DNA from: a virus
DNA length: 64,000 bases
IMG/VR virus record: IMGVR_UViG_3300017971_000185
Span: 421,683-485,682 of that record
Direction: 5' to 3' (one strand)
The position numbers were made by a program, and so were the translations under genes. Below, one piece after another: positions 7,767 to 29,298 of this stretch (positions within the stretch are counted from its first letter, which is position 1; each line of letters begins with the position of its first letter). The notes below the pieces were generated by a model that saw nothing but the letters and a program-made list of their open reading frames with translations, had not been told where the DNA came from and searched no databases.

Positions 7767-7775
7767 GGTCGTGAT

Positions 7776-8843: not shown

Positions 8844-8964
8844 GCTCGTGCGACGAATCCTCGCGGGGAAGAGGAAGGTTTATGATGTTGCTGTTGCTGG
8901 CAGCCATGCTTTCTTCGCCTATTCACGTGAGGGTAACGGTTGTCATGCTGTCCTGGCTCACAAC
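8836..8964 (+). mobile_element. split intein, C half (in DnaX)
   Basis: A 43-residue intein C segment. Block F is KVYDVAVAGSHAFFAYS and block G is AVLAHN followed by Cys+1, so the penultimate His, terminal Asn and Cys nucleophile needed for splicing are all present. Its GTG start overlaps the end of the endonuclease gene, so it is translated as a separate polypeptide and must associate with the N half at 7449-7763. Confidence 0.9.
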
Positions 8965-10035: not shown

Positions 10036-10546
10036 GCTATCCAAGCAGGGCGAGCAAAAGGTCGAAGACGGGTCTCTGGTCACCGATATCCGTGAAGCTC
10101 TGGGCGTAGATGAGGACTGGCCCGTGTTCGTGCCAGCGAAGGTCTACGCCAAAGGCGGCAAGCAAATCACCATCCACCTAATGGAAGGATATGCTTTCAT
10201 AGCTTCGGGGTTGGACGAAGTAGACTATTTCAAATTGGAGAGTGACACGAAGCTAGTTTCAAAGGTCATGTCTGCAATCTCACCCTCCGGTGTGAAGGTT
10301 CTGAGTACGATTGCGGATATTGAAATACAGAGTTTGCGTCGACAATTGATGGAGCGTATTGCGTCAGATATCTCACCTGGCATGAAGGTTCATGTGACCG
10401 AAGGTAAGTATCGTGGTTTGGACGGAGAGGTGCTTCTGATCTTGGACGACTGTGCTATAGTCCACATCGGTTTGCGGTCGTTGCAGACGATGGCCCGGAT
10501 TCCTCGGGTGTTTCTGGATGCGAGCATTGACAAAGGTGTTGTTTGA
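9995..10546 (+). CDS. NusG-like transcription factor
   Basis: A 183-residue protein with an N-terminal NGN-like domain (VTWVALELSKQGEQKVED ... FVPAKVYAKGG ... GYAFIASGLDE) and a C-terminal KOW motif (ISPGMKVHVTEGKYRGLDGE). NusG/RfaH-family proteins bind the RNA polymerase clamp and promote elongation or antitermination. A phage copy immediately before a sigma-like gene and the virion genes suggests control of late transcription. The ATG at 9995 is preferred to an in-frame TTG at 9986; both overlap the dnaX end. Confidence 0.75.
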   Translation: MGDQRDRVTWVALELSKQGEQKVEDGSLVTDIREALGVDEDWPVFVPAKVYAKGGKQITIHLMEGYAFIASGLDEVDYFKLESDTKLVSKVMSAISPSGVKVLSTIADIEIQSLRRQLMERIASDISPGMKVHVTEGKYRGLDGEVLLILDDCAIVHIGLRSLQTMARIPRVFLDASIDKGVV

Positions 10547-11157
10547 TGGCGACGCGATGGACGGATTGCCGGTCAGTTGATCCTGCCGAGTTAGAGGCTC
10601 GGTACTCGGTTGACGACTTGATGGACTTCATCGAGTCAACGGTCAACGATGAGCCTTCCGAAGAGGCGCAACGAAACCTGGAGCGCATTCGGGAGATCAT
10701 CGAGGATCTCCCACCGCGTGAAGCTGACTTCGTGGAGTTGTACTTCTTTCGTCACCTGAAACAAACAGACATTGCAAACATCTTCAAGGTCAGTCAGCCG
10801 ACTGTCTGCTACCGACTGCAACGAGCAACCCTACGCATTCAGTTTATGCTCTCGTTGCCTGATGTGACGGCGGAGGAGATCGAGGAAGCAATGCGTGGCT
10901 TCTTGGCTGATCCGAAGGATGTTGAGATCATGGTGCTCATGTACAAGACCACGTGTCAGAGCGAGGTCGCAAAGCGTCTGGGCGTCACGCAAGGTCTCGT
11001 GCGACATCGGTTCATGCGAGCCACGCAGAAGATGCAGAACAATGAGGAGATGGAGACCTACGCTCAGGTCTTCGATGCCATCAGCAGAAACCTCAACATT
11101 CTTCGCGAAGTACAACGCAACGCTTGGGATGCCCGAGTAACGCACGTCGTGGACTAG
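10546..11157 (+). CDS. sigma-70 region-4-like protein with two HTH units
   Basis: A 203-residue protein with a sigma region 4 pattern (LPPREADFVELYFFRHLKQ, then TDIANIFKVSQPTVCYRLQR) and a second similar helix-turn-helix (QSEVAKRLGVTQGLVRHRFM). No region 2 is evident, so it may act as a divergent late sigma factor or as a region-4 transcription activator. The ATG at 10546 overlaps the stop of the NusG-like gene (tgATG), implying co-translation. Both would act on RNA polymerase just before the virion operons start. Confidence 0.7.
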   Translation: MATRWTDCRSVDPAELEARYSVDDLMDFIESTVNDEPSEEAQRNLERIREIIEDLPPREADFVELYFFRHLKQTDIANIFKVSQPTVCYRLQRATLRIQFMLSLPDVTAEEIEEAMRGFLADPKDVEIMVLMYKTTCQSEVAKRLGVTQGLVRHRFMRATQKMQNNEEMETYAQVFDAISRNLNILREVQRNAWDARVTHVVD

Positions 11158-11162
11158 CGATA

Positions 11163-11173
11163 GTCCGCCTATG
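11163..11173 (+). promoter_or_regulatory. candidate late promoter motif (CCTAT type)
   Basis: The sequence gtccgcctat lies between the sigma-like gene and the lipoprotein gene. The same core recurs at 11859-11868 (actccgcctat), 16256-16263 (cctcctat), 550-556 (cacctat) and 29275-29279 (cctat), in each case in the short gap before a gene. It could be an element read by the phage sigma-like protein. Evidence is positional only. Confidence 0.3.
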
Positions 11174-11197
11174 ACACGTCAAGCACAGGAGAAGGTC

Positions 11198-11820: not shown

Positions 11821-11858
11821 CGTTTCTGGGCCTTTCAGGGGCTCCTGGGCCGGTACTC

Positions 11859-11868
11859 CGCCTATCCG
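11859..11868 (+). promoter_or_regulatory. candidate late promoter motif (CCTAT type)
   Basis: Second clear copy of the tccgcctat motif seen at 11165, here placed after the terminator hairpin and about 30 bases before the next gene. This is where a promoter for the virion-protein operon would be expected. Confidence 0.35.
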
Positions 11869-11896
11869 TCCCATTTGAGTAGGACTCCTCTACCTC

Positions 11897-12223
11897 ATGG
11901 AAAAGAAACCATCTGAGCGGCGGATCATCATGGCTAAGAAGGTGGCCCGTGATTGGCTGCTGAAACGTGCCAAACCAGAGTATCGATTCCGGGTTTACCA
12001 CAACCAGGATTCGGCGCCTTATGTGAGTTTGTTGCGGAGCTTTCGGGATGGTCGTTTCAAGCTCGCGGGTGTGGACCAGCTTCCCGATTTGGGGGTGAAG
12101 GAAGAGGTCGGCGGTTTCACAGTATGGTCGTCAGACTGGAAGGCGATCATGTCGCTCAAGACCTTCTTTGAGAAGAAGGGGATGGATACGTCGTGGATTT
12201 GGACCCGAGATGGTGATCGATGA
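11897..12223 (+). CDS. hypothetical virion-cluster protein
   Basis: A 108-residue basic protein of unknown function. An alternative start at 11930 (MAKKVARDWLLKRAKPEYRF) is attractive because the motif KVARDWLLKRA resembles the short [RK]VAxxYLxxA motif found in other proteins of this cluster. The end overlaps the next gene by 4 bases. Confidence 0.6.
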   Translation: MEKKPSERRIIMAKKVARDWLLKRAKPEYRFRVYHNQDSAPYVSLLRSFRDGRFKLAGVDQLPDLGVKEEVGGFTVWSSDWKAIMSLKTFFEKKGMDTSWIWTRDGDR

Positions 12224-12656: not shown

Positions 12657-13709
12657 ATGTCGCTACGCAAGAGAGTCTTGAAGCTGGCTTATCAACGGGA
12701 GGATCTGCGGTCCTATCTGTTGCCTTTGATCGAGAAGGATGCGGGCGCTCTGGGTAGTCTTTCCAAGCAGATTGAGAAGCTACAGGGTGTCGATAGCGTC
12801 AAGGTGATTTCGGACAAGCCGACTTTGAACGGGAAACGAGAGGTTATCCTTGGGATCTACATGGACGCTGAGATTGGAGCTACGAAAGGTCGTCAACACC
12901 TAACGAGGCTCGTCCGCAAGGAGCTAGACCGCGCGGTATCGAAGTATCCAGTTGTCATGATTCGAATGTTGTCCCCAAGCCCTGGTCTAGATCCCTTCGG
13001 TCGTCCGGGGGTGGGGTGGGACACGCATCGCGAGAGGTTCCAGAAATACTACTCGGAACATCCCTACAAACTCATTTTGGAGACAGAGCCGGGAGTGTTG
13101 CGGACGGCCAAGGACTTTTGGGTGGAGCTTCGCGAGTTGCCTCCGGTGCTTCAGCGGGCTCTCAAGTCCGTGGGATACCGGCGCAAGGACATTCGAGTCG
13201 AGCCGGACACGACCTACAGTCCGAGCGAAGGGTCGGCCAGTGCTTCGGGACAGCGCGGCTACGTCATCGTCGTCAACATGCAGACGGGTCAGATGAAAAC
13301 GGAGATGGGCTCGTGGGGCGGCCCCAACCCCTTCGAGCGCAAGCAGGTTGATCTGGATCGGCGCAACTACCCCATCCCGGCCAACGGAGCTGTGGTTGTT
13401 GGCGAATCGGGTGGTCGTGGCTCCTTTGCCCGCATCAAAGTCAACCCATCCAACCTGTCGGCCATTCTTCCGTCTGGGGATGAGGACAAACTTCCTCCCG
13501 ATGAGCAGAAGGCTCTCAACATCATCGGCGGGATCAAGGGCGGTCACCGGGTCCGCTACTTCGAACGCAATAACCTTGGCCCCTACGACTTTCGGGCTAA
13601 CCCCCTTCTCCAGTCGCTCGCCAAGAAGGGGATGATCAAAGCCAACCGGGCTGGGGCGATGAAGATCACCACGAAGGGGCGCAACGCCATGACGCGGGAG
13701 ATCCTCTAG
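12657..13709 (+). CDS. virion-associated protein with LRKxVLKLA leader
   Basis: A 350-residue protein beginning MSLRKRVLKLAYQREDLRSY, an N-terminal leader shared with the proteins encoded at 15918, 18903 and 21535. The rest is unrecognised; it includes a Gly/Ser-rich section and a winged-helix-like end (LLQSLAKKGMIKANRAGAMK, ITTKGRNAMTREIL). A strong ribosome site (aggaggact) precedes the ATG. The repeated leader suggests a common targeting signal rather than a common function. Confidence 0.6.
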   Translation: MSLRKRVLKLAYQREDLRSYLLPLIEKDAGALGSLSKQIEKLQGVDSVKVISDKPTLNGKREVILGIYMDAEIGATKGRQHLTRLVRKELDRAVSKYPVVMIRMLSPSPGLDPFGRPGVGWDTHRERFQKYYSEHPYKLILETEPGVLRTAKDFWVELRELPPVLQRALKSVGYRRKDIRVEPDTTYSPSEGSASASGQRGYVIVVNMQTGQMKTEMGSWGGPNPFERKQVDLDRRNYPIPANGAVVVGESGGRGSFARIKVNPSNLSAILPSGDEDKLPPDEQKALNIIGGIKGGHRVRYFERNNLGPYDFRANPLLQSLAKKGMIKANRAGAMKITTKGRNAMTREIL

Positions 13710-13718
13710 GAGCAACTC

Positions 13719-15347
13719 ATGGCACAGCCCCCGCTCAAACTCGATGCTCTGGAAATCGTCGGCGATAGTGGCGTTGGTGTTCGGCTAATCGAGTCGGACG
13801 CGACAACCGGAGAGCTTCTCTTTTCGGATGCTGTTGTAAGCGCTCGCAAGCTGGCCGAAATCATCGGTTTGCAGGGTGTCGATGGTGTGATCGTTTGCGG
13901 CTCTGGCGATGGCGTGAGCAAGGACGCGGACAACAACCCGATCACGACCCTTCAGGCAGCCTTTGCGGCGGTTCCCACGTCAGCGAGCGCCTCGAATCCC
14001 TGGCTCATTCTTCTAATGCCGGGGGTCTACATCGAGGATGTTTACGCTGATCGTGACGGCGTCCAGGTCCGGGGACTCGGAAACGTCATCGTTCGGAACG
14101 CCACTGCGAACGATACGCTCACTATCTTGGAGGGACCTTTCTCGGTGCCTCGGCGTGTGACCTTTGAAGGCGTGCGCTTCGAGAACACCGACGTGTCGAG
14201 CGCTTGTGTCACGGTGACTTCTGCGCTCTACGCGACAGGCACGATCACGGTATCCGATGTGACGCTTGCGGGAGACACGGTTTCCATTGCCGGGATCACG
14301 CTCACGGCGATTGCGTCCGGTGTTCCGGTAGCGGGAGAATTTCTGCTTGGAGCCACGTTCATCGACACGGCCACGAATCTCACGACGGCAATCAACGATC
14401 CAATCAACACGCCGCTTGACACGACGGTTAAGGCATTTTCCAGCGGTCCGGTGATCACGCTTCGAGCGCAGGTACCTGGGTTGGCTGGAAATGCGATTAC
14501 GATGGCAACTTCTGTGCCGGCAACTTTTGTGCTTTCGGGAGCCACGCTGGCTGGTGGGGTAGATTCGGCTGCCGGTTCTACGGTTGCGAACGATCATATC
14601 GCGTTTCTCAACTGCGACTTCGTTCCGGCCGGAGTGACGGGCCAGTACATGAACCTGGCGTCGATCAACAACATCTACGTGCAGGGCGGCGACTGCGCCG
14701 GATCGAGCACCGGAGCTACGTTGATCTGTCACGAGTGTGCTCGGTTTGAGGTTGTCGGACTCGGCAACGTTTCTCGAATCGACCTTCGTTACGATTCAGG
14801 CGGCACGTTGCCGTCCATCGCGACATCCACCTACACGTTGCGCGACATGACGGTTTCGACGGCGGTCACGGCAACGTTTGTTGGGGTGGTCGGGAGCCTA
14901 GATGTTCGCTCGTCTCGGCTAAGCGCAGCGTTTACGTTGTCTGGCGGGACGGCTTTGATTGCCAATTCGGACGTGAGCACTTCCACGACGGTGGGTGGGG
15001 GAGGCGCTCTCACGGCGCAAAACTCGTCTCTGGGTGCTCTGGATGTGACGGGTTCCTCGGCGGCTACACTGACGAATTGCACACGCGGCACCCTGACTGG
15101 AGACGGGACTTCCACCGTAGCGGAGACTCTCTCGGTTGGGTCGCTCGCATTCGCCGCTGCACCAGCAGCGACATTCACGTTCCCGGTTCCCCAGCCAGAT
15201 GCAGCCTACACCGTGCATCTCGATTCGGCCATCTTGCCTGGGGCGGTTGCGGACATTCCGGTTGTGACTTCTCGATCGGCAGCCAGTTTCACGGTGACGT
15301 TCGGCGCACCACAGACGACCACGGTCGGTTTCACGGTAACGAGGTAA
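13719..15347 (+). CDS. beta-helix tail fibre / tailspike-like protein
   Basis: A 542-residue protein with the pectate-lyase-like start common in phage spikes (ITTLQAAFAAVPTSA, then PWLILLMPGVYIEDVYADRD) and many short beta turns (VRGLGNVIVRNATANDTLTI). An inserted domain near residues 165-285 (TLAGDTVSIAGITLTAIASG ... TNLTTAINDP ... LAGNAITMATS) is a module also found in the protein at 20934. The C-terminus ends in a beta-sandwich tip. It probably recognises or degrades a surface polysaccharide; no catalytic residues can be assigned by eye. Confidence 0.65.
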   Translation: MAQPPLKLDALEIVGDSGVGVRLIESDATTGELLFSDAVVSARKLAEIIGLQGVDGVIVCGSGDGVSKDADNNPITTLQAAFAAVPTSASASNPWLILLMPGVYIEDVYADRDGVQVRGLGNVIVRNATANDTLTILEGPFSVPRRVTFEGVRFENTDVSSACVTVTSALYATGTITVSDVTLAGDTVSIAGITLTAIASGVPVAGEFLLGATFIDTATNLTTAINDPINTPLDTTVKAFSSGPVITLRAQVPGLAGNAITMATSVPATFVLSGATLAGGVDSAAGSTVANDHIAFLNCDFVPAGVTGQYMNLASINNIYVQGGDCAGSSTGATLICHECARFEVVGLGNVSRIDLRYDSGGTLPSIATSTYTLRDMTVSTAVTATFVGVVGSLDVRSSRLSAAFTLSGGTALIANSDVSTSTTVGGGGALTAQNSSLGALDVTGSSAATLTNCTRGTLTGDGTSTVAETLSVGSLAFAAAPAATFTFPVPQPDAAYTVHLDSAILPGAVADIPVVTSRSAASFTVTFGAPQTTTVGFTVTR

Positions 15348-15350
15348 TCA

Positions 15351-15914
15351 ATGAGTGGTGACCCCTTCGATCCCTATGCCAGCATTACGCTGGGCCCCGA
15401 CACCGATGTGATGGACTCCCACATCCAGGGCAAAAAGTTGGATGGGGGTCAGTTTGTTGCGGTTCGGAGCCTGACTGATCGTGAGCGTGAGAAGAATGCG
15501 TTGGCGGTTCCGGCGGTTGCGGGTACGCGCGTTGCTTTCGTGGCAAACATTGGTTCGGTTCTTCACTATGACTACATCCCTGATGAGGGCGTCGAGGGAT
15601 CGGTTATCATGGTGCGGACGGCAGAGGGTGACTGCACGAGCCTGGGAGACAATGTGTTCGTGAGATGGGATGACGGGTACTTCATGCCCGTCTCTCGCTA
15701 CCACCTTCGGCCAGGAACCTCCGAGGACGCAAACCCTCCCACCATGCGCTTCGCCAGCCTTGGTGACTTGCACGGAACCTTCATTAGCTCGGACGACAAG
15801 ACAAGTGAGTTAGTCCACAAGAGCACGAAGGACCTGTGGAGCTTTGAGGAGAAGGACGGCGAGTATGTGATCAGCCGTTTGTTTGATGACACGGGAGAGC
15901 CCTTGAAAGGCTAG
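15351..15914 (+). CDS. hypothetical virion-cluster protein
   Basis: A 187-residue protein with a beta-rich middle (GSVIMVRTAEGDCTSLGDNV, then FVRWDDGYFMPVSRYHLRP) resembling an SH3-like barrel. A similar short barrel-like stretch occurs in the protein at 41447 (VRLFNGEDTDVGRVVAVWP). It starts 3 bases after the fibre gene and ends 3 bases before the next, so it belongs to the same operon. Function unknown. Confidence 0.55.
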   Translation: MSGDPFDPYASITLGPDTDVMDSHIQGKKLDGGQFVAVRSLTDREREKNALAVPAVAGTRVAFVANIGSVLHYDYIPDEGVEGSVIMVRTAEGDCTSLGDNVFVRWDDGYFMPVSRYHLRPGTSEDANPPTMRFASLGDLHGTFISSDDKTSELVHKSTKDLWSFEEKDGEYVISRLFDDTGEPLKG

Positions 15915-15917
15915 GCC

Positions 15918-16250
15918 ATGACGCTTCGCAAGAATCTCATCCGCCTTGCACACGAGAATCCCGGCATGCTTCGGGAAGCGTTGCTTGATGTATTGGCCGC
16001 CAAGCTGACGCTTCGCCAGGTCAAGGCTCTGATCAAGAAACACAATCTTCCGGGGGAGGTGAGCGGTCGCGGGACGGATTGGGAGATCGAGGTCGCGAAC
16101 GAGAACCAGAAGCGGAAGGTGGAAAAGGTGATCAAGGGCCTGGGAGGCTTCAAGACCGGGTATGGCGGCTGGGGTGTTGCGCCAGGGCTACAAGGGCAAA
16201 GGCGAGTGGAGCGATCCCGCGTCGAAGTGGCACTACTAGGCTGTAAGTAG
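15918..16250 (+). CDS. LRKxLIRLA-leader protein, probably frameshifted near its end
   Basis: A 110-residue protein starting MTLRKNLIRLAHENPGMLRE, the clearest copy of the shared N-terminal leader. A helical segment and KVIKGLGGFKTGYGGWGV follow. From about base 16180 the +1 frame gives a more natural ending (GYKGKGEWSDPASKWHY, stop at 16237-16239) than the annotated frame (LQGQRRVERSRVEVALLGCK). Either a real or sequencing-induced 1-base shift, or programmed +1 frameshifting, is possible. Function unknown. Confidence 0.55.
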   Translation: MTLRKNLIRLAHENPGMLREALLDVLAAKLTLRQVKALIKKHNLPGEVSGRGTDWEIEVANENQKRKVEKVIKGLGGFKTGYGGWGVAPGLQGQRRVERSRVEVALLGCK

Positions 16251-16255
16251 CGAAT

Positions 16256-16263
16256 CCTCCTAT
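16256..16263 (+). promoter_or_regulatory. candidate late promoter motif (CCTAT type)
   Basis: cctcctat followed by agaaaa lies in the 36-base gap before the gene at 16287. It matches the core of the elements at 11165 and 11859. Confidence 0.3.
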
Positions 16264-16286
16264 AGAAAAACCCCCTACGGACCCCC

Positions 16287-16955
16287 ATGACTCAGCCCGA
16301 CCCACAGCGTGTAGCAGCCATTTACCAGGCTAGGTGCTTGTATTCACGGGCAGAAAGCCTGTTGGCGTCAATGGACCGGATCGCGAGCCAGGAGACGGGA
16401 GGCCGCATCAAGACGGCTGGAGAGGTCATCTTCAGGAAGGATCGCGGCGGAGACGAGAATCAGTGGGCCTATGCTGATGTTGGGCCATCCGAGCGTGTCA
16501 TAGGGGATTTCAACTATTCGCCCAAGAACCTCAAGCCTCTGGCGCGGGCGCTACGCTCGACGCTGGCTGGATTGGGGCATGTTCTCTCGGCCTACAACGT
16601 GTTTGCCAAAACCAAGTCGGCGCGTGTGAGCCCGGACGGAAGTCTGGGTGGCAAGGGATTCATCCAGAAGATCTCGGACATGAGACGGCAGTTTATGAAT
16701 TGTGTCGAGTCCTTGTCGGCTCTGTCGGACACGCTCTATGACGAAGTGAATGCTCCGCACTGGTCCGTGCTCTCGCGTCAAGAAGACTCCGAGCAGAAAC
16801 GTGAAGTGCAGGAGATGATCGAGGACGTGGAGGAGATCCGCAGCGATCCCGAGGAGTGGGCCGAGGAGCAGATCGAAGAAGAGTTTGAGGAAGGCAACGA
16901 AGGGGTTGCCAAGACCGCGAGCCGACTAGCGAGCCGTTGGTTGGAAGGTGCCTAA
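16287..16955 (+). CDS. hypothetical virion-cluster protein with RVAxxYxxR motif
   Basis: A 222-residue, largely helical protein. It begins MTQPDPQRVAAIYQARCLYS and ends SRLASRWLEGA; both ends resemble the recurring [RK][VI]AxxY/HL motif of this cluster. The last third is very acidic (EEWAEEQIEEEFEEGNEG). It overlaps the next gene in a TAATG arrangement. No enzyme motif is visible. Confidence 0.55.
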   Translation: MTQPDPQRVAAIYQARCLYSRAESLLASMDRIASQETGGRIKTAGEVIFRKDRGGDENQWAYADVGPSERVIGDFNYSPKNLKPLARALRSTLAGLGHVLSAYNVFAKTKSARVSPDGSLGGKGFIQKISDMRRQFMNCVESLSALSDTLYDEVNAPHWSVLSRQEDSEQKREVQEMIEDVEEIRSDPEEWAEEQIEEEFEEGNEGVAKTASRLASRWLEGA

Positions 16956-18910
16956 TGGGTTCCAAGATGCCAAGTGACGATCTCACGCCCACCATGGGAT
17001 ACAACTATCTCTTGGAGGGGTACGACTTCGATGAGCAGTATGGGGATGGTGTTGTCGATGGCGCCAGGCTTCCCGAAGCCTATGGTCTCGGCGGACTGCC
17101 CGATGGCATCGTTGATGCGGACGATAAACTCGCGATTCCCGAGGGAGTCGAGCGTACGGAGGAAGAAGGGTTCGATCTGACCAGCACGGATCTGGTAGCC
17201 GACAGCGGTCTGCCGCAGCCGGAGTATCAGGAGGATGAGGCCCATACGGATTCGGTACCTGATGTCACGGACTTCTCCTGGTTAGAGGATGCTGAGCAAG
17301 ATCCCAATCGGCTTCCGAGCTTGGCGACCAATCGAGTGATCCCAGAGCTAGTTGAAGCATGGGGCAAGAGAACGGATGGTATTCGTCGGATCGAGGCAGT
17401 CGATCGTGACGCAGCCCCAACCGAAACGAAGGTTTCCGATGCTGACCTTCGGCGTGTTCTGGCTTCGGCAATGCGCAAGTCCGCTTCCGGCGTTTCGGTT
17501 GCTCAGATCAAGGAAGAGGTCGTTCAAGCTCTCGGCCATGAAGCAGCACGGCTGGCGAAGCCCATGAAGGCTCTGGAGAATGAGCATGGGCTCGTTGGGA
17601 ATGTGTACTTGCGTCCAAGCGCTTTCCCTGGACTGCTCCGGGGGAAGTGGGCCAAGGAGATCAAGAAGAATTACAAGACCGCACGCTATCTCATAGCGTG
17701 CGGACAATGCACGGCGTGCAAGGGCGGCAACAGCTCGGAGTGCGCCTGCAATGCTCTGCTGGGCCTGAAAGTGGTTACGGCGGTTGACTGGAATCAGGCA
17801 TACGCCCACTACGCGCCGCGTCTGGAGGCGACAGGGCGACTGGACCGTATGGCTACGGTCATGGACAAGCGCCTGGCGCTCCAACAAGCATTCCTGCGTC
17901 ACGAGCGGAACGTGGTGCCGGTGACGCGGCAGCAATTCCCCAAGGATGTGGTGCCCGAGCCGGAGATTTCGCCAGAGGAGGCGCGTCGGGCATTTGCGGA
18001 AACTGGCCCAGCGAAGCGTGAAGTGGTCGATCCGGCCAAATTGGCCGCGAAGCACCAGAGCAAGAAGGTGCAGGCGAAGATTGGACAATGGGTCAACGCT
18101 CGTCTCCTCACAGAAGGTGAGGCGCGTACTCTCCTGGAGTCCGGTGGACATCCAGACGCCATGCTCAAGAAAGCAGCGCGTATCATTACAGCACGCAAGG
18201 AGAGTGGGGTCTACAGAGGGGATGGTCGTCTGCCGCCAATGGCGACGGCGAAAGAAGCATTCGAGGCGATGCGGGGTCAGGGTGCGGAGCTACAGAAGCG
18301 TGTGGCTTCTCAGCAAGTCCCAGAGCCAGAGGGTGAGAATGTCCGTCAGGTCACACAGATGATGCGGTGGGCCAGGCGACAGATGACAGAAGGATTCGCA
18401 GGCAAGGGTCTGACCGATCTGCTCAGAGGGAAATTCTCTCCGCGGTTGCTCTCGGCAGCCAGCAAGCAACTGACTCAGATCCGCAAGAAGCATGAAGGGC
18501 TTTCGGGGCGCGTGTATGTGGATGCCGCTGCCTATGCTTCATCGAGCGGGACAAAAGGCTGTGAGGAAGGCGCTCTGATTCACCGCGCGAACGCACTACC
18601 TACCGTTTTGGCTATGTCACGTTGTAGCTCGTGCGTGTCGCGGAGTCAGTTGGAAGATGGCACGATGCGGTGCCAGAAGTACAACAAGATGTTGGTGGAT
18701 GCGCCGCCGGTCGAAAACCCACTCGTGTATCAGGCTGAGCAGATACGGCTGGCCGATGCTTCGGATGCCGAGATAACGGCTTCGATTTTCTCGCCATCCG
18801 AGTTTGATCTCTGCAACGATAACCTTGAAGGCTTCGACATCGATGAGGGGCCGCCTTTGTCCAAGTTGTCAGAGTACACCTTCGGAGGCATGGAGTGGAA
18901 TGATGAGTAG
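16955..18910 (+). CDS. large protein with duplicated Cys-rich domain
   Basis: A 651-residue protein of unknown function. Two parts look homologous: a helical lead-in followed by HGLVGNVYLRPSAFPG with a CGQCTACKGGNSSECAC cluster, and near the C-terminus HEGLSGRVYVDAAAYASS with CSSCVSRSQLEDGTMRC. The cysteines are spaced as in zinc- or Fe-S-binding modules. The N-terminal 100 residues are acidic and the protein ends in GGMEWNDE. It sits among virion genes, so a structural or DNA-contacting role is likely. The start at 16955 overlaps the previous stop. Confidence 0.6.
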   Translation: MGSKMPSDDLTPTMGYNYLLEGYDFDEQYGDGVVDGARLPEAYGLGGLPDGIVDADDKLAIPEGVERTEEEGFDLTSTDLVADSGLPQPEYQEDEAHTDSVPDVTDFSWLEDAEQDPNRLPSLATNRVIPELVEAWGKRTDGIRRIEAVDRDAAPTETKVSDADLRRVLASAMRKSASGVSVAQIKEEVVQALGHEAARLAKPMKALENEHGLVGNVYLRPSAFPGLLRGKWAKEIKKNYKTARYLIACGQCTACKGGNSSECACNALLGLKVVTAVDWNQAYAHYAPRLEATGRLDRMATVMDKRLALQQAFLRHERNVVPVTRQQFPKDVVPEPEISPEEARRAFAETGPAKREVVDPAKLAAKHQSKKVQAKIGQWVNARLLTEGEARTLLESGGHPDAMLKKAARIITARKESGVYRGDGRLPPMATAKEAFEAMRGQGAELQKRVASQQVPEPEGENVRQVTQMMRWARRQMTEGFAGKGLTDLLRGKFSPRLLSAASKQLTQIRKKHEGLSGRVYVDAAAYASSSGTKGCEEGALIHRANALPTVLAMSRCSSCVSRSQLEDGTMRCQKYNKMLVDAPPVENPLVYQAEQIRLADASDAEITASIFSPSEFDLCNDNLEGFDIDEGPPLSKLSEYTFGGMEWNDE

Positions 18911-19217
18911 TCTGCGAAGTCACCTCATCCGACTCGCTCATGAGAACCCTGGCGAAGTGCGCGACGCCATCCTCCCGCTGCTCAAGGAGGCCGCCAAGAA
19001 GTTGGGCAAGCCAGAGATCATCCACGGGATGAAGTACGGAGGAACGCGCTACAAGTACAACTACGGGATCTTCATCGATCACGTAGAGAAAGACGGAGAT
19101 TTTCTCGTGGCTCAATCCGGCAAGAGGACCAAGAAACACGGAAAGGCCAAGAGTCTGAAGGAAGCTGAGAAACTCGCACTGAGAAAGTGTGAATTCACCA
19201 CGAAGCCTTCGCACTGA
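18903..19217 (+). CDS. LRSxLIRLA-leader protein
   Basis: A 104-residue basic protein starting MSSLRSHLIRLAHENPGEVR, the shared leader of this cluster. The remainder (KYGGTRYKYNYGIFIDHVEK ... SLKEAEKLALRKCEF) looks like a small alpha/beta fold. The preceding ATG at 18900 is an equally possible start. It overlaps the end of the 651-residue gene. Confidence 0.55.
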   Translation: MSSLRSHLIRLAHENPGEVRDAILPLLKEAAKKLGKPEIIHGMKYGGTRYKYNYGIFIDHVEKDGDFLVAQSGKRTKKHGKAKSLKEAEKLALRKCEFTTKPSH

Positions 19218-19244
19218 GAAACGGCTACTACGGACGGTGATCTG

Positions 19245-20924
19245 ATGACTGCTCTAGCTCTTCAAAGCTGGATCGTTGCTCCCGAGGTAGAGCGGGTGGC
19301 GCGGGAGTTTTCCCCCGAGGAGTGGGAGACGTACAAGAAGGATCACCCTGGCGCAAAGCGGGAGCGTCATACGATCCGTGAGCGCAAGAGGGAGCGTGGG
19401 AAGGAAGAGGAGAAGGCTGAGAAGCCGAAGGGGAAAGCGAACGAGACCAAGGAGGCGCTCAAGGCCGCGAAGCCGAAGATCGAGAGCAAATTCAAGGAGG
19501 CGATCGGCGAGCAGTCGCAGAAGATCGCGGATGGTGTCGATAAGCTCCTGAGTATCTCTGAGGGCTCGACAAGCAAGTTTCTCAAGCATCTACCTACAGC
19601 GGGTATCGCTGTTGGCGCTGCGGTAGGCGCTGCTCTGGGGCCTGAGTGGCTTGATGCTCTGGGTTCTGGCGATCTCGCAACGATGTTGCCAGGGATCAAG
19701 GGCACACTGCTCGCAGGAGCGGCAGGAGCGGCGATGGGAGCTATTCCCGGTAGTGCAACGGTGTTGGCAGGTCTCGGGGCGTTGGGAGTGCTCGCCAAGA
19801 AACTTGCCAAGTGGGCTGGCGGTAAGGAAGGCAAGACAGCCGCCGATTTGGCCGACATGCCTGATGATCTCAAGCAAGCATTGCTCGACTACTTTACGAA
19901 CGTGACGGATGACGAGATGGCGCTAGTCGGGAAGGCGAAGTCCAAAGAGAACGCAGCCAGCCTTGCCGCTGCGGTTCTCAAACAAGAGGAAGAGAAAACA
20001 GAAGGTGGGGAGAAGCAGGCTGCTTTGATGAATAGGTGGTCCTCAATGGAGAACACTAAGCAAGCATGCGTCAACCTCAGAGCGCTGATGGCGTTGTTGC
20101 AGGCAATGTATCAGCACTACTACACAGCACACTGGACAACGCGTGGGGAGCCTTTCTACGGTAAGCATCTCATGTTCCAGCGCATTTATGAGGCAATCGA
20201 TGAGGAAGTCGATTCTCTTGCTGAGAAGTTGGTTGCCTTCTTCGGTGCGGAAGCTGTTGAGCCTGTGGCGCTGGCTTCTTTGATGCAGGGATGGTTGCAG
20301 CGTTGGTCTTCGATTGAGGATTTACGTCGTAGGTCTCTTCAAGCTGAGAAGGATTTTCAAGAGAGTCTGCGTCTGATCTACGATCAGTTAGAGAAGGAAG
20401 GCTCTTTGACGTTGGGGCTTGATGATTTTTTGGCCGCCATTGCCAATACCCATGAGACTCACACGTATTTGGTGCAGCAGTCACTTGGTGGTGTGTCGCG
20501 GGTAGCTACGTTGGTTGAGGCATGGGGACGAGGATATGGACCAGGACGTGGATATGAGTGTGGATATGGGCCGGGGCCGGGCCGGGGGCCAGGACCGGGC
20601 TGGGGTGGATATGGGCCGGGGCCGGGATACGGGCCAGGATGGGCAGGATTGCCTGGCGAGATGACGCCTCTCGAAAAGTCCTGGGGTGGCTATTCGTCCT
20701 TCCGGCCGATTCGCCGTGGCGAGGAGGATGAGGACGAGGAAGTCGATGCCGATGACCTGGATCTCGATGCTTCATGGGAAAGTCTCGCGGACGATGAGGG
20801 CTATTTCCATTCGGTTCCGCAGTGGAGCGAGCTACGTGAGCTAGCAGAATCCGGCGAACGAGAGAAGATGCCGAAGACGGACCAAGAGCCCTTTGAAGGG
20901 TGGACTCTATCCGCGACCGGATAG
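19245..20924 (+). CDS. fusion protein with Dps/ferritin domain
   Basis: A 559-residue protein. Residues about 20-36 carry FSPEEWETYKKDHPGAK, a motif shared with the protein at 33840. Residues 117-190 are a long Gly/Ala-rich hydrophobic zone. Residues about 272-415 are a Dps-family ferritin-like helix bundle with ferroxidase residues at exact Dps spacing: His296 (TAHW), His308 (GKHLM), Asp323 and Glu327 (EEVDSLAEK). Residues 430-468 are a Tyr/Pro/Gly repeat (YGPGPGRGPGPGWGGYGPGP), followed by an acidic tail. Dps proteins oxidise and store iron and can coat DNA. Here the domain sits in a virion-type gene, so it may be packaged or exposed. Confidence 0.75.
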   Translation: MTALALQSWIVAPEVERVAREFSPEEWETYKKDHPGAKRERHTIRERKRERGKEEEKAEKPKGKANETKEALKAAKPKIESKFKEAIGEQSQKIADGVDKLLSISEGSTSKFLKHLPTAGIAVGAAVGAALGPEWLDALGSGDLATMLPGIKGTLLAGAAGAAMGAIPGSATVLAGLGALGVLAKKLAKWAGGKEGKTAADLADMPDDLKQALLDYFTNVTDDEMALVGKAKSKENAASLAAAVLKQEEEKTEGGEKQAALMNRWSSMENTKQACVNLRALMALLQAMYQHYYTAHWTTRGEPFYGKHLMFQRIYEAIDEEVDSLAEKLVAFFGAEAVEPVALASLMQGWLQRWSSIEDLRRRSLQAEKDFQESLRLIYDQLEKEGSLTLGLDDFLAAIANTHETHTYLVQQSLGGVSRVATLVEAWGRGYGPGRGYECGYGPGPGRGPGPGWGGYGPGPGYGPGWAGLPGEMTPLEKSWGGYSSFRPIRRGEEDEDEEVDADDLDLDASWESLADDEGYFHSVPQWSELRELAESGEREKMPKTDQEPFEGWTLSATG

Positions 20925-20933
20925 GAGGACTGC

Positions 20934-21527
20934 ATGGGTCAACTCAGGATCACACCGTTGCTCATAGCGCCGCAGTCGGCACAGCCGCCCTATCAGCTAT
21001 TGGTAGCGAATTTCTCCAAGCCGCACACGCCCGAGTTTGGCACGACGGGAAGCAATCCCATTCGCACGAGGTCTGGGTTCGAGTGGCAGAACACGAGCTA
21101 CCTGTCGTATGGACACGACGCTGCTCGCAATACGGTCGTGGCAACAGGGACGGGTTCCCTTCTGACGAATCCTCCGTGGACGGGCCAGACGGGAGCTGTC
21201 ACGATCAACGACAACGACTTCACCACCGGGCGCGCGTTCGTTTTCATCGGTAGGTTTGTGCTGGAGGCAGGAGAGGACTTCGCCGTTGGGGCCAACGTGG
21301 GGGCCACGGCAACGAACCTGGCGTTAGCGATTAGCAATCTGCCAGGCTACACCGGTACGCCCGCGGCAGCAGTTGTCAATGTCGTTGGGCCTCTTGGTAG
21401 CCAGGTGCTCACGTGGCGAACACAAGTGTTTGGCGCCAAAGCCAACTTCTCGAATATCACGCCAGACAGTGGGTTCTTGGCTCCGGGCGATCCGCAACGT
21501 GGCGGCAACGTGATTCTCCCCGCGTGA
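20934..21527 (+). CDS. beta-rich structural protein
   Basis: A 197-residue protein with no charged helices and many Gly, Thr and Asn. The second half (GRFVLEAGEDFAVGANVGAT, then ATNLALAISNLPGYTG and a closing GDPQRGGNVILP) is the same repeat module as that embedded in the beta-helix protein at 13719. Such modules are common in phage baseplate and fibre proteins. A good ribosome site (aggaggac) precedes the ATG. Confidence 0.55.
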   Translation: MGQLRITPLLIAPQSAQPPYQLLVANFSKPHTPEFGTTGSNPIRTRSGFEWQNTSYLSYGHDAARNTVVATGTGSLLTNPPWTGQTGAVTINDNDFTTGRAFVFIGRFVLEAGEDFAVGANVGATATNLALAISNLPGYTGTPAAAVVNVVGPLGSQVLTWRTQVFGAKANFSNITPDSGFLAPGDPQRGGNVILPA

Positions 21528-21534
21528 GGTCGTT

Positions 21535-22272
21535 ATGAGCCTTCGTAAGAGCGTCATCCGTCTTGCCTATGAGAAGCCAAATCTTCGGTCGTTTTTGCTT
21601 CCGCTCGTGACCCGCAAGAAGGTCGCGCGGGAAATTCCAAAGATTCTTGAGGGCAAGAACATCCGTGTCTATGCGGATCGTTTTATGATCAGGGTGGTCG
21701 AAATTCCTCAAAAGCCGCTCAGGCGTCGGAGTGTTCGCACCCTGTCGATTCCTATCAACGCACCGGGTAGTAGGCCCTTCGATGCGTTCATTGTGGACAA
21801 CCTGCTTCACCATCGCGATGGCGCCAAGATTGGCAAGAACGACACCTACGATCAGGCTCTCAAGAAACTCCAGAAGGCTCTCAGCAAAGCCGAGGAGTTG
21901 ACGACCAAGGAGTGGGAGGAGCAGAAGATCGACGGCAAGCCTGATCCCTGGTTTCCTCGCATCAGCCAAGACGAAATCAACTACCTGTTGGTCGAGCCCT
22001 CGGACTACAAGCCGCTCAGCATCAAGGGCAAGGACTTCACTCTTCAAAGTACGTGGACCGACTTCAAGGCATACGACCCAGGTGCGGATTTCCAATCGCA
22101 CGATCCAACATACACGGTGATCGTATCGAAGTCTCCGACAGGAGCGCGGAAACTCTACAAGATGCTCAAGGTCAACCCTGACGCGCTCAAACGGGTGTCT
22201 TGGTATCAGCTTACGGACTGGTTGCGCAAGAACAAGATCAACTTCGACAGCCATGGAAGCGTGTATCGCTAG
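21535..22272 (+). CDS. LRKxVIRLA-leader protein
   Basis: A 245-residue protein starting MSLRKSVIRLAYEKPNLRSF, nearly identical in pattern to the leader at 12657. The body is basic and of unknown fold, with a C-terminal helical segment (SWYQLTDWLRKNKINFDSHG). It closes the group of virion-associated genes before the terminase genes. Confidence 0.55.
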   Translation: MSLRKSVIRLAYEKPNLRSFLLPLVTRKKVAREIPKILEGKNIRVYADRFMIRVVEIPQKPLRRRSVRTLSIPINAPGSRPFDAFIVDNLLHHRDGAKIGKNDTYDQALKKLQKALSKAEELTTKEWEEQKIDGKPDPWFPRISQDEINYLLVEPSDYKPLSIKGKDFTLQSTWTDFKAYDPGADFQSHDPTYTVIVSKSPTGARKLYKMLKVNPDALKRVSWYQLTDWLRKNKINFDSHGSVYR

Positions 22273-22278
22273 GTGTGA

Positions 22279-22965
22279 ATGCCGACGAAAGAACAGCTAG
22301 ATCTCCTTGCTGACAGTCCTCCAAATGCCACACGGGTCAAGGTCGTCACGGCCGAAGGGAAAGAGAAGTGGCGAATCCTTCCTGGTTTGGTTGGCCCCGA
22401 GGAGCAAGTCCTTCTCGATACCGACACGATTGCGCTGAGCAGCAAGAAGCGCAGGCCCATCTTCATGACGGGGAAGCCGGGGCGGAAGGTCCGTCCCAAG
22501 CGGGATCCCAAAGATGAGCTAGTCAAGGTCATCGTCAAGGACAAAGAAGAACACATGAAGAAGGATCCTCTTCTGGCTGCGGTTCGCGAGAACCCGGAGT
22601 CGGTGGAGGTTCTGCACGAAACGATCAAGGCCATAGCCAACGAGGTTTCCTCCCTGGAATTCGAGCGCATTGAGGCAGACCGCAAAGGCGAGGGCTCAGC
22701 CATGCTCTCGAATCGTCGCATCGCGGCGTTGACCAAGATCGGTGACACATGGCTCAAGCGGATGGACCAGATCATGTCCAAGGGCATCGATCTGGAGAGC
22801 CCGGCTTTCAAGGGTGTCTACAACCTGATCATGGAGACGTTTCGCGAGGCCATGTCCTCTGCAAATATCCGTGAGGAGGCCATCAAGCTGACGTTCACCA
22901 AATTCAGTCACCGTGTCGAGGCTGATGATTGGTGGAACGAGGCTCGGATGAGGATGAAGCAGTGA
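22279..22965 (+). CDS. probable small terminase subunit
   Basis: A 228-residue, mostly helical protein immediately upstream of the large terminase and overlapping it by 4 bases. It has a basic middle (KPGRKVRPKRDPKDE) that could bind DNA and a long C-terminal helical part (AFKGVYNLIMETFREAMSSA). Small terminases recognise the packaging site and regulate the large subunit, and usually sit exactly here. There is no diagnostic motif, so the call is by position. Confidence 0.5.
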   Translation: MPTKEQLDLLADSPPNATRVKVVTAEGKEKWRILPGLVGPEEQVLLDTDTIALSSKKRRPIFMTGKPGRKVRPKRDPKDELVKVIVKDKEEHMKKDPLLAAVRENPESVEVLHETIKAIANEVSSLEFERIEADRKGEGSAMLSNRRIAALTKIGDTWLKRMDQIMSKGIDLESPAFKGVYNLIMETFREAMSSANIREEAIKLTFTKFSHRVEADDWWNEARMRMKQ

Positions 22966-25100
22966 CCCGGTCGAGCCTAGCGGAGATAGCCCGAACGGTC
23001 GGCTCCTTCTGGGACAACAACGCGGCTTCCGGGCAGACAGAGGTGGTGGATGTCATCACCTTCATCGAGGAGTGGGCAGGCCGCAGGCTTTTCCCAGCAC
23101 AAAGAGTCATCCTCAAGGCCCACTACGGGCTGGCTCTCGATGACAGCCCGGCTGGCTTTTCAGAGGAGCTACTGGCGTCTTACTCGACCGTGGATCTCCT
23201 GGCTCTGGCGCTGGAGGAAGATCCCAAGGTCAGTGGTCAGGCAGATCGAGCGCAACTCATTCGGACCATCATGCGCAAGACCGTCGTCATCTATGATGAC
23301 GATGCTCCTTGGCGCAAGACGCCAGCCTCAGCGAAGTGGCTGACTGAGCGCGAGTACCTGCACTATCTGTACGACAACCAGCGTGCGAACATTCGCGAGG
23401 TCATTCCCGGCGAAGAACGCCGGGAGATGATCCTGAGTGTCGGACGACGGTCAGGAAAGACTGAGTTGTCGGCCATCATTGCGGCTTACGAGACGTACAA
23501 GCTGCTGGCCAAGGGGGATCCGCAGCTTTTCTACGGGCTCCCAAACGGCGAGACGATTCAGCTTATCTCTGTTGCTACTGATCGTGATCAGGCGAGCATT
23601 CTCTACGGCAAGGTCAAGGCGATCTTCAACGACACGGACTACTTCGCGGCTCACCGGGCCAACTCGACCCAGACCTTTGCGAAGTTTCAGACGGCGAGGG
23701 ACATCCAAGACTTCGGTCGGTTTGATGGCAATGCTCAGCAGGCGAGCATCAACGTCACTTTCCGTTCGTGCATCGCGAAGGGGCTGCGTGGTCCCGGTAA
23801 CATCGTCGCCATCCTAGACGAGATCGCTCACTTCACAGATGCAGGGCAGTCGTCGGCAGAGGAGGTCTACAAGGCGATCTCTCCGTCGCTCTCGACGTTT
23901 ACTCCGAAGGATCCCGACAACCGAACCAAGGCGCTCACGGAAACATCCGATGGGCGCATGATTCTGATCTCATCTCCGCTTGGTCGGCAGGGCAAGTTTT
24001 TCGAGTTGTTCCAGATGGCGATGAAGGGCGGCTCTGGGTCGGCCAACATGCTGGCGATTCAGGCACCGACGTGGGAGATCAACCCGACCATTCCGCCGGG
24101 AGAGTACGAGAAAGAGTACGCCAAAGATCCTATCCAATTCATCACGGAGTTTGGCGGCGAATTCTCCAGCCGGACGCTGGGTTGGATCGAGGTCCGCAAG
24201 GATCTGCTCGAATGCGTGGACCCGACGCTTCGCCAGCGAACACGCGGGCTCCCTCGTGTTCCTCATTTCATGGGGATCGACTTCGCGTTGGCTCAAGACG
24301 GCACGGCCGTAGCCATCGGTCACATCGAAGGCCCCAAGGTCATCCTCGACTACATCGATGAGATCCGTGCCGGGACGCCAGGGCCCTACGAGAACCATGA
24401 GCGGCTCGACTACGAGGAAGTGGCTGACTGGATTCGGGACTTGTCGAAGAAGTTTCTGATCGAGGAGGGGATGTTCGATCAGTGGGCCGGGATCATCTTT
24501 GAGCAAGCTCTTGCGAAGCGCGGACTTGCCCAGATCAAGACGCAACACCTGACGGGTCCTCTGTCGAGCCAGATCTTCAAAAACTTCAAGGATCTGATGT
24601 ACGAGAGGCTTCCCGGCGGAGAGTCGCGGCTCGTTCTCTACGATGACATGCCCGATAAGGACAAGACGGGGATGAGCGAGGACGCGTACCGGGAGGCACT
24701 GGCGGCGCAGGACGAGATGGGGGAGGGCGACGATCCGAAGGAGGAAGAAGGGCCTATCTCGTATCTCCAAGAGTTGCTGGAGCTACAGGCCACGATCAAG
24801 TCCAAGTACATCGTGGAGGTCAAGGCTCCCAATCTCGTTGGTAAGCATGACGACCGCTCGGATGCTCTGGTGCGCATGGTGTGGCTGGCTTCGCAGAGAC
24901 TTGGAAACATCAAGTATATCTCAGGGCAGATAGCTCAGGGCGTTGGCCCCAATCGACACCGAATCTCAGAAGGTGCGGTTGTCAAGGCGCGAATGAGGGC
25001 GATGCAGAGTGGTAGCCATGAGCATCGGACTGTTCGCCAGCGCCAGGGTCACTATGTGCGTCCAGTGCTCGGGGTTCGCGGAGGAAGGCTAAAGGGGTGA
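22962..25100 (+). CDS. terL: large terminase subunit (packaging ATPase-nuclease)
   Basis: A 712-residue TerL. The ATPase domain has Walker A (SVGRRSGKT), Walker B (IVAILDEIAHF) and a coupling motif (MILISSPLG). The RNase H-like nuclease domain has FMGIDFALAQDGTAVAIGH with its first Asp and the late DDRSDALVRM acidic pair. TerL pumps DNA into the prohead and cuts it. The GTG at 22962 overlaps the preceding stop and avoids a poorly supported upstream extension from 22929. The C-terminal 60 residues are basic. Confidence 0.92.
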   Translation: MTRSSLAEIARTVGSFWDNNAASGQTEVVDVITFIEEWAGRRLFPAQRVILKAHYGLALDDSPAGFSEELLASYSTVDLLALALEEDPKVSGQADRAQLIRTIMRKTVVIYDDDAPWRKTPASAKWLTEREYLHYLYDNQRANIREVIPGEERREMILSVGRRSGKTELSAIIAAYETYKLLAKGDPQLFYGLPNGETIQLISVATDRDQASILYGKVKAIFNDTDYFAAHRANSTQTFAKFQTARDIQDFGRFDGNAQQASINVTFRSCIAKGLRGPGNIVAILDEIAHFTDAGQSSAEEVYKAISPSLSTFTPKDPDNRTKALTETSDGRMILISSPLGRQGKFFELFQMAMKGGSGSANMLAIQAPTWEINPTIPPGEYEKEYAKDPIQFITEFGGEFSSRTLGWIEVRKDLLECVDPTLRQRTRGLPRVPHFMGIDFALAQDGTAVAIGHIEGPKVILDYIDEIRAGTPGPYENHERLDYEEVADWIRDLSKKFLIEEGMFDQWAGIIFEQALAKRGLAQIKTQHLTGPLSSQIFKNFKDLMYERLPGGESRLVLYDDMPDKDKTGMSEDAYREALAAQDEMGEGDDPKEEEGPISYLQELLELQATIKSKYIVEVKAPNLVGKHDDRSDALVRMVWLASQRLGNIKYISGQIAQGVGPNRHRISEGAVVKARMRAMQSGSHEHRTVRQRQGHYVRPVLGVRGGRLKG

Positions 25101-25792: not shown

Positions 25793-28700
25793 GTGGCGTC
25801 TCCAAGGAAACGCGTTCGCGCTCGGACATGCCTGCGGGTGACCCCCAAGCGACGGGTCATCGCGGGATCAGCGGATGTTCCGACCAACGGAGATGCTCAA
25901 CTCGTGGGCCGAGTACCCACGCGGACAGACCGGCGAGAGGAGCTATCGGTAGGTAAGCCGCAGCCTCTCATTCGTGGCTCGATGAGGTCGAAGATCGCTA
26001 CGTGTGGTGGGTCGGCTTTCAGCGGCTACGGAGGAGCCGGCGGCGTAGGAGGCATAGGTGTTTCTGGCGGCGGTTCGGGTGTTGGGTCGGCGGGATCATC
26101 CACGCTCGGAAGTGGTGGCAACTTCTATTCGCCCGAGCTATCCACCGATTTCCTTGAGCTACCGCAGAGCCTAGACGAGCAGCGAAACTACTTCCGGTTC
26201 TTCTACCGGGCTGATCCGTTTGTTGGTCAGGCCATCGATCTACACACGGAGCTACCGCTGTCCAAGATTCGTCTCGGTCGCCCCGAGGCCAAGAGCAAGG
26301 AGCTTGGCGATCAGTCATTGGACTTCATCAAACGTTGGTGCAAGAACATCGGGTTGTTGCATCGGCTGATCGAGATCGTTCACGAGTACAACCTCCTTGG
26401 TGAGGTCTTCATCTTCTTTGAGGACCGCAACCCGGAGATGCCCGAGGATATCCGTGTCGAGCGGAAGTATGTCTTGCCGGATGAGGAGGGTGCGGAGCTG
26501 ATCGAGCAAGCCGAGGAGCGCGACAACGCGGACGAGCGCGCTGCCGACTGGATGCAGGCAAACTACGAAGGATGGACGGCGATCCGCGTGCTTCCGCCGG
26601 AGCAGATTCATCTTGAGGGCTTTCCCTTTACGGATGAGAAACTCATCGAGCTAATCCCTGACTCCAAGACCAAGGCCATCATCGAGATGGCTGGCAACGG
26701 CGACGAACGAGCCAAAGAGATTGTGGAGTCGATGCCTGCGGATGTCGTGAGTGCGGTTACGGATGGCAAGAACATCCCGCTCAACACGAATCCGAAGGCA
26801 GGGTCGTTCTGCTACTACATGGCGAACAAGCGCAGCCAGTACGAGCCCCGCGGGCACTCTCGTCTGGAGCGCTGCATTCGCACGCTCGTCTATAAGGACA
26901 AGTGTCTGCTTCCGGGCTGCTTGGTTTGGGTGAGGAGAAAGGGTATCCCGCAGCAGGTCCGAGTAGAGACGATTCAAGACGGGGAATTCTTACTTACGCA
27001 CAAGGGGAGATTTCGCAAGGCTATAACCGGGTCTCGGGAAATTGAAGAAGATATTGTTGCTCTGGCGGTGGAGGGAATCCGGCGTCCGCTTTGTGTGACG
27101 AGGGATCATCGAGTGTTGGTTGTGGAGGATGGTGTTGAGCGATGGATCGAAGCAGGTGAGTTGAGGCCGGGGCAGCAGCTTTGCGAGCCTTCGATTGATA
27201 ACGGGGATAGGCGGAGGACGTTTGATCTTAGAAAGTGGTGGGGCAATCGTCATTTTGCGGTCCAACGAAGAAGTCTTTGCGGGGGGGAGACTTGTATTGT
27301 GGACCGTCACTTGAGTGTTTGTGAGGTAAGCGAAGAGGACAACACTCTATATGTAACATTTAGTTTTCCGCAGGATCATGTCAATCGTGTCGGGGCCGTA
27401 CAAGGAATGAGGAAATTGCTAGAATGGCTCAGAGATTTGGAGAGACCTACTCAGGTTTCTTACAAGGCTCTTTCTGAGGTTACTGGCATTTCTCCTGTTC
27501 GCTTAAGGAACTACGCGTTTACACTAAGAAAGCGTTTGGGTCTGCGGATGGATACAACTCCAGTAGGGGCAGGTCCGCGCAAGACTACGTGGCATCCCGC
27601 GCCCCCAGACGCCGAGGTTCCTGATGAGACTCAGTATCATACGTTGGCTTCGGGTCTTTGCGAAGTTCCTCTGACGGAAGACGTGTGTTATTTGCTTGGT
27701 GCTTTTTTGGGTGATGGGGCAATATGGCACAGCGATTGTAGATTTCTCAATACCTGCTATGTTGAGTGGTCGTTCGGCGGCGACGCCATTTCGTTAAAAG
27801 TACGAGATCGGATCGCCCGCATTGCAGGAGATTTGATCAGCGATGAGAATCTGCATTTTACCCCTGTAATGGGGGAATACGACACGGAGAGTGCGATTCA
27901 TTATGTTCGTGTTGAGGATGAATTGTTTGCACGATGGGTAGCCGAGGAGATGGGCGTTGACTGCTATACTAAGCGGTTGCCTTTTTGGGTGTTTGAGCTA
28001 GCAGATGAACAAATCAAGGCGTTGCTGTGTGGCCTACTTGATACGGACGGATCGTTGAAGGTTGGATTGCCTTCTAACGATAAAACTGTCGAGATCTCTG
28101 TTGAGTTGGCAAACGCTACATTAATTGATCAGTTACATCTCTTGTGCAATCGTGTGGGGCTTGTGTCGTATGTTGGGCAATGCACGAGGTCTGCAACTTC
28201 GATAACGCGCCGCTGGAAAACAAAATCCGGGATGCGGGAGAAGACATACACGTACCCGGAGGCAACATATTATTCGCTGAGAAGCACAGATTATTCTAGT
28301 GTTAGGGAGTGGAGTAGGGGTTCAGTTAAGGGAGAAGAAACAGAGTGGGTTGAGCGAAAGTATACTTGGCGTTCGCGGTTTGATCATAATAGGCTGACTC
28401 GAAGAATCACTGGAGTGGAGAGAATTCCATACACGGGTACGGTGTATTCGTTTGATGTAGAAGAAGATGAGTCGCATACAGGCGGTGGATTGCTTTTGCA
28501 TAACTGTCGGCAAGCCCAGACATCGATCGCATCGCGTCATATGACTCCAATTCGCCTGGTCTACGCTGAGAATATGAACCAAGCGCAGACCGAGGCCCTC
28601 CGAGATCAGATCGATCTGGCGCTGCAAGATCCCGACTACAGCATCGTCACCAACTTCCAGGTGACGTGGGAAGAGATGACACCGCAGGGTCGTCTCTTGG

Positions 28701-29260: not shown

Positions 29261-29274
29261 GCTGATAGATAGCC

Positions 29275-29279
29275 TATCT
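29275..29279 (+). promoter_or_regulatory. candidate CCTAT motif before giant ORF
   Basis: The 38-base gap after the portal gene contains gatagatagcctatctaag and an inverted repeat, gccctct/tcgagggc. The CCTAT core matches those at 11169 and 11864. It may be a promoter or processing site for the giant-ORF operon. Confidence 0.2.
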
Positions 29280-29298
29280 AAGCCCTCTATCGAGGGCT

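Follow-up and report, generated by a model that had tools for sequence, protein, structure and literature searches.

A portable two-helix segment on unrelated proteins of a clade of huge phages, probably a docking tag for the assembling head

Why would a huge phage place nearly the same residues on proteins that otherwise have nothing in common? This question is raised by a 64,000-nucleotide stretch of DNA (hereafter the window; positions 421,683 to 485,682 of IMG/VR record IMGVR_UViG_3300017971_000185, a phage record of 497,194 bp), in which four proteins begin with a shared 26-residue helical segment that we call tag A (consensus LR.(K)LIRLAHENPELR..LLPLLK). Genes in the window and in about 130 kb of further stretches were called with a simple home-made caller. 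An earlier note on this DNA had described the segment as an N-terminal leader of virion-cluster proteins, acting as a sorting or docking signal. We conclude that tag A is probably a docking tag: a portable module that folds on its own into two helices and guides co-regulated cargo proteins into the head during its assembly in a clade of huge phages. Its copies in the window are listed below, with E values from a four-sequence profile.

12657..12743, + strand: tag A, N-terminus of a 350-residue protein (12657-13709), E = 3e-17
15918..16007, + strand: tag A, N-terminus of a 110-residue protein (15918-16250), E = 9e-17
18903..18992, + strand: tag A, N-terminus of a 104-residue protein (18903-19217), E = 6e-17
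21535..21621, + strand: tag A, N-terminus of a 245-residue protein (21535-22272), E = 1e-18

Pairwise local scores among the first 30 residues of these proteins are 36-84, against at most 40 for the remaining 1,764 pairs of N-termini in the window; in a shuffle control (n = 200), the best of the six pairs averages 23 and reaches a maximum of 36. The leader is present, at the coordinates given, on all four proteins that the earlier note had named. Its statement that they differ completely afterwards holds among the four, where we found no similarity past the leader, but not beyond them: the body of the 21535 protein has a full-length tagged paralogue (gene at 392977; 26% identity over 254 residues, E = 4e-18), and that of the 12657 protein shares 45% identity with a tagged protein of LR745208.1, an uncultured 485-kb phage. 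No homologues of the 21535 body were found in cultured phages. The body of the 18903 protein weakly matches a head-decoration PHROG (E = 0.0036).

Searched against its own record, the four-leader profile finds 23 copies (E = 1e-18 to 4e-6), four of which lie within the window; the 19 additional carriers have E values of 1.6e-15 to 4e-6, and the next match only 0.3. The search for further leader-bearing proteins, which the earlier note had suggested, was thus productive in this record and also in related phage contigs, and it also revised the note. Tag A is not confined to N-termini: one copy in this genome lies at the extreme C-terminus of its protein (243494-244558) and three are internal, and among 90 distinct carriers from related contigs the tag is N-terminal in 77, internal in 21 and C-terminal in 5, with some carriers tagged at both ends. 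Nor are carriers generally virion-cluster proteins, as the majority are encoded outside that cluster, often solitary or in small groups and frequently on the strand opposite to their neighbours. Single proteins with several copies are also seen, and C-terminal copies may end the protein (LLPLLK, LLPLLR or LLPLLQ, then a stop). In two carriers (stretches L043 15281-16687 and L045 3531-4172) the tag is probably truly internal, because the upstream element described below supports a start far upstream of it. The in-frame copies at C-termini and inside proteins led us to reject a signal acting at the mRNA level or in the start region.

The segment is separable from the bodies that it accompanies. 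A phage carrier with a DUF2958 body has the tag at residues 3-29, a linker, and the body at residues 41-136; this body shares 56% identity with residues 2-96 of a complete, tagless 98-residue protein of a Nostoc plasmid, which starts where the body of the phage carrier starts. In LR745208.1, the orthologue of the 392977 protein is joined to the end of another protein, the tag lying at the point of fusion, and the 12657 body directly follows the tag, with about 115 residues between the two in the window's protein. Carrier bodies include cargo-like domains (DUF2958, RelA/SpoT, WGR, 2H phosphoesterase, pentapeptide repeats and DnaJ). A Pfam, PHROG and PADLOC scan of 88 carriers gave no family common to more than 4 of them, and tag A is therefore not a described family in these three collections. 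A PDB search with the tag gave no match better than E = 0.98, a full-text literature search for its core found no paper, and models of defence proteins matched carriers only marginally. The same segment thus sits on non-homologous bodies and can be separated from them, as is characteristic of a portable docking or sorting signal.

AlphaFold2 predicts the tag of the 21535 protein as two helices (residues 3-13 and 15-25) with a tight turn (predicted local distance difference test, pLDDT, 92-96), followed by a stretch below pLDDT 50, and the model of a second carrier has the same hairpin (pLDDT 84-96). The alignments behind these models have depth in the tag columns only, and the low confidence of the bodies therefore says little about them. 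The tag is modelled as a separate hairpin beside a low-confidence stretch, not as part of the continuous folded domain that the earlier note had considered contrary to its reading. Its amino acid conservation is strong across divergent phages.

Among 50,697 phage records, tblastn with tag consensus sequences gave a whole-length match only in LR745208.1 (11 copies), with the limited sensitivity of so short a query. In IMG/VR, tag A occurs in about 40 related contigs, at 3-15 copies per contig in the 13 contigs counted. No copy was found in the plasmids searched, and among 84,980 prokaryote genomes tag A occurs in one contig, from an Actinomycetota metagenome-assembled genome. The major capsid protein encoded in the window shares 78-94% identity with its counterparts in 11 other tag-bearing records, and its closest cultured relatives are those of Tunturiibacter phage Tunturi_5 (48.5%), Bacillus phage G (38%) and mycobacteriophages (about 29%). 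Because the tag occurs almost only in related contigs and is absent from Tunturi_5 and phage G, it marks, as far as these collections show, one clade of huge, mostly uncultured phages. In contigs from many samples (L205-L215), identity of the capsid protein is close to 90%, yet that of other proteins, such as the 12657 body, only about 45%. The capsid gene belongs to the following head gene cluster.

22932..25100, + strand: terminase large subunit (PHROG, E = 7e-26)
25838..29260, + strand: portal protein with an intein-like insert (PHROG portal, E = 1.5e-22; insert read from the translation)
41981..46096, + strand: head maturation protease with intein/Hint sequences (PHROG, E = 1.7e-7; Pfam intein/Hint models)
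46089..47474, + strand: scaffold candidate, by its position between the protease and capsid genes only
48364..49236, + strand: major capsid protein (PHROG major head protein, E = 6e-48)

The protease frame contains two intein/Hint-like stretches, and the scaffold candidate has no family match.

Carriers that head a unit have a common sequence element, TA-N4-SNCTAT, upstream of the start, mostly at a distance of about 20-45 nt. Trained on ten such sites, a weight matrix matches, outside the training set, one tag-A gene, several genes encoding a second motif (motif B, [RK]VAxRYL) and a lipoprotein-like gene at 11198. With the strict pattern, 10 of 18 unit-heading tag-A or motif-B genes of this genome match versus 3 of 97 others (Fisher P = 1.4e-7). 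The comparison in other genomes (8 of 37 such unit heads versus 8 of 246 others, P = 2.4e-4) is the cleaner one, because the pattern was shaped on this genome. A scan of the whole record yields 21 matches versus 5 in a reversed control, many of them not at tag genes.

10546..11157, + strand: sigma-factor-like protein (PHROG sigma factor, E = 4e-16)
11157..11180, + strand: promoter-like element TAGTCCGCCTAT, preceding the lipoprotein-like gene at 11198 that leads into the head cluster (untrained weight-matrix match)
11850..11873, + strand: promoter-like element TACTCCGCCTAT, preceding the motif-B gene at 11897 (weight matrix)
29262..29285, + strand: promoter-like element TAGATAGCCTAT, preceding the motif-B gene at 29299 (weight matrix)

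The gene for the sigma-factor-like protein immediately precedes the first promoter-like element of the head cluster, and we infer that its product is a candidate (late) sigma factor reading TA-N4-SNCTAT. Expression of the tagged genes is presumably late.

Motif B-like heptads occur 30 times in 943 proteins versus 5.6 expected from shuffles, with 12 N-terminal, 5 C-terminal and 13 internal. In the window, motif B lies at protein ends and inside giant proteins encoded between portal and protease; the copies are as follows.

11939..11959, + strand: motif B KVARDWL, near the N-terminus of the 11897-12223 protein
16923..16943, + strand: motif B RLASRWL, C-terminus of the protein ending at 16955
29314..29334, + strand: motif B KIAKRYL, N-terminus of a 1,510-residue protein (29299-33831)
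34947..34967, + strand: motif B RVAIRHL, inside a 1,009-residue protein (33840-36869)

The 29299-33831 protein has further copies inside, at residues 290 and 1116. It combines a 2H/LigT-like region, a metallopeptidase-like region and a CCA/polyA-polymerase domain. Motif B follows the same positional rules as tag A and shares its upstream element, and may be a parallel address. A third recurring element (FP.E.AL..YL.EHP.AD...H.V) is represented in the window by the entry below; in relatives, a similar element often comes directly after tag A.

19308..19376, + strand: third element FSPEEWETYKKDHPGAKRERHTI, in a Dps-like protein (19245-20924), recognised by eye in the translation

This protein has 559 residues and a ferritin/Dps-like domain in addition to the element. 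Elsewhere in the window, the head cluster encodes a 1,523-residue protein (36866-41437) that opens with a topoisomerase IB catalytic domain of the eukaryotic type (Pfam, E = 5e-24), and a clamp-loader-like gene (about 7095-10035) appears to be interrupted by an intein.

Outside the window, an operon near positions 390842-398895 of the record contains two tag-A genes, a C70-like peptidase and a weakly ART-like protein with motif B, and an SNF2-type helicase; we take it to recall the dar genes of P1. A search of solved structures with the ART-like motif-B carrier found none. The helicase (1,094 residues; record 394685-397969, L048 8686-11970) adjoins the tagged genes and matches long helicase and methyltransferase PHROGs of phages. 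The carrier at 243494 has a ParB-like body distantly homologous to ORF101 of Dickeya phage LIMEstone1 (28% over 145 residues, E = 3e-12), which is annotated as a confirmed structural protein, with virion mass spectrometry in PMC3296691. It is the only carrier body with a homologue of this kind.

In the mechanism that we favour, the tagged cargo genes would be co-expressed late in infection, and the hairpin would attach through its conserved L/I/R positions to a single common receptor, which might be the inner face of the capsid protein, the scaffold or core, or the portal region. Many unrelated proteins could in this way be packaged together and then delivered with the DNA into the next host. 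A virion location is suggested by the element shared with the head cluster, by the clade-wide capsid protein and by the ParB-like body of carrier 243494. More tentatively, and at slightly less than an even chance in our view, this clade with one capsid protein could possess a two-code, position-independent address system (tag A and motif B) with a late promoter, and possibly also a sigma factor, of its own, loading dozens of interchangeable effectors and multidomain proteins; the particle would then be a general-purpose vehicle for protein delivery.

Several observations weigh against the head as the destination. Tunturi_5 and phage G, cultured members of the same capsid family, lack tag A, and unbiased clustering of Tunturi_5 N-termini gave no analogous shared leader. 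Tags within 10 kb of the capsid gene number 15 against 14.0 expected, which is no enrichment. The regular expression for the upstream element took its form from this genome's own sites, and the late timing is itself deduced. The LIMEstone1 homologue is tagless and so speaks for where the body is located but not for what the tag does. Across 123 tags there is no invariant T4-like cleavage site, and among phages that bear the tag we found none with a virion proteome. The sorting or docking signal of the earlier note stands in part, as a segment that is portable on unrelated bodies, missing from tagless homologues, predicted to form its own hairpin and tied to the head cluster through the upstream element, but not as one restricted to N-termini or to the virion cluster.

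The evidence for a module would be identical, and names no target, if the tag docked its carriers on another phage-made intracellular structure, such as a replication compartment, a membrane site or the tail assembly; most carriers do lie far from the head cluster, as this would allow. Such a destination is nevertheless unlikely, considering that the upstream element also stands at the gene leading into the head cluster, that one carrier body has a virion-confirmed homologue and that four carriers lie inside the cluster. We give somewhat less credence to the tag as a propeptide or spacer for the head protease, cut out at ends and junctions, with the processing of precursors and multidomain proteins as its main role. 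The position of tags at ends and domain junctions, the encoded head maturation protease and the A, G or S at +3 after LLPLL in 86 of 123 tags are compatible with this; however, Glu just precedes that residue in only 38 of 123, so there is no T4-like consensus, C-terminal copies stop right after LLPLLK, and the whole 26-residue hairpin is conserved, exceeding the needs of a cleavage site.

An amphipathic hairpin, in several copies in one protein, might also be a small interaction domain for self-association of carriers, devoid of any address function. We consider this improbable, as clade-wide co-occurrence with one capsid protein and an element shared with head genes suggest a common target. 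Finally, the leader could be a by-product of gene shuffling, in which recombination reuses a 5' coding end and the peptide has no function. Tags do resemble those of the same genome, where the nearest neighbour of a tag is found in 44 of 95 cases against 9.7 expected, and mean identity within genomes slightly exceeds that between them (0.608 versus 0.588, permutation P 0.05). In-frame C-terminal and internal copies and the strong conservation at the amino acid level across divergent phages make this explanation very improbable. A docking tag for the head thus remains our preferred reading.

Among the signals that choose proteins for phage heads, that of T4 is short, and the Dar proteins of P1 lack a consensus. 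With a recognisable tag, sequence alone would suffice to read off the probable virion cargo of huge phages that are uncultured, and many 'hypothetical' proteins would become testable candidates for delivered effectors. The tag would also provide a compact module, whose receptor and packaging role are testable by reporter fusion, and demonstrate that a single signal is able to work at either terminus of a protein as well as between its domains.

The capsid-targeting sequence (CTS) of T4 is an N-terminal segment of 10-20 residues that loads internal proteins and Alt into the prohead, is removed, and is transferable (PMC5694885). Tag A is likewise a short segment on several otherwise unrelated proteins. 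Unlike the CTS, it has 26 residues and up to 23 carriers, is mostly but not exclusively N-terminal, with internal and C-terminal copies, and lacks an invariant cleavage site. In P1, a reporter needs no more than the 30 N-terminal residues of DarB to reach the capsid; there the cargo acts on host defence, and the Dar proteins have no consensus N-terminus (PMC9024508), whereas one tag A consensus serves dozens of proteins. No sequence relation of tag A to the T4 CTS or to the DarB N-terminus was detectable, within the sensitivity of the short-query tblastn search of phage records, in which only LR745208.1 matched. The T4 comparison made in the earlier note would be apt for the way of working and fails for N-terminal-only location and for sequence relation. 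A CTS-like role has been proposed for the inner-head propeptides of SPN3US and phiKZ (PMC5694885). These are also giant phages with many packaged proteins; their propeptides, mostly longer than 100 residues and removed by the protease, are unlike tag A, which is compact and can be C-terminal. Cargo-loading peptides of encapsulins and microcompartments are short terminal addresses common to unrelated cargo of a protein shell; they belong to cellular systems, unlike the phage tag. Without assigning it membership in either group, we suggest that tag A works like the T4 CTS or the P1 DarB signal.

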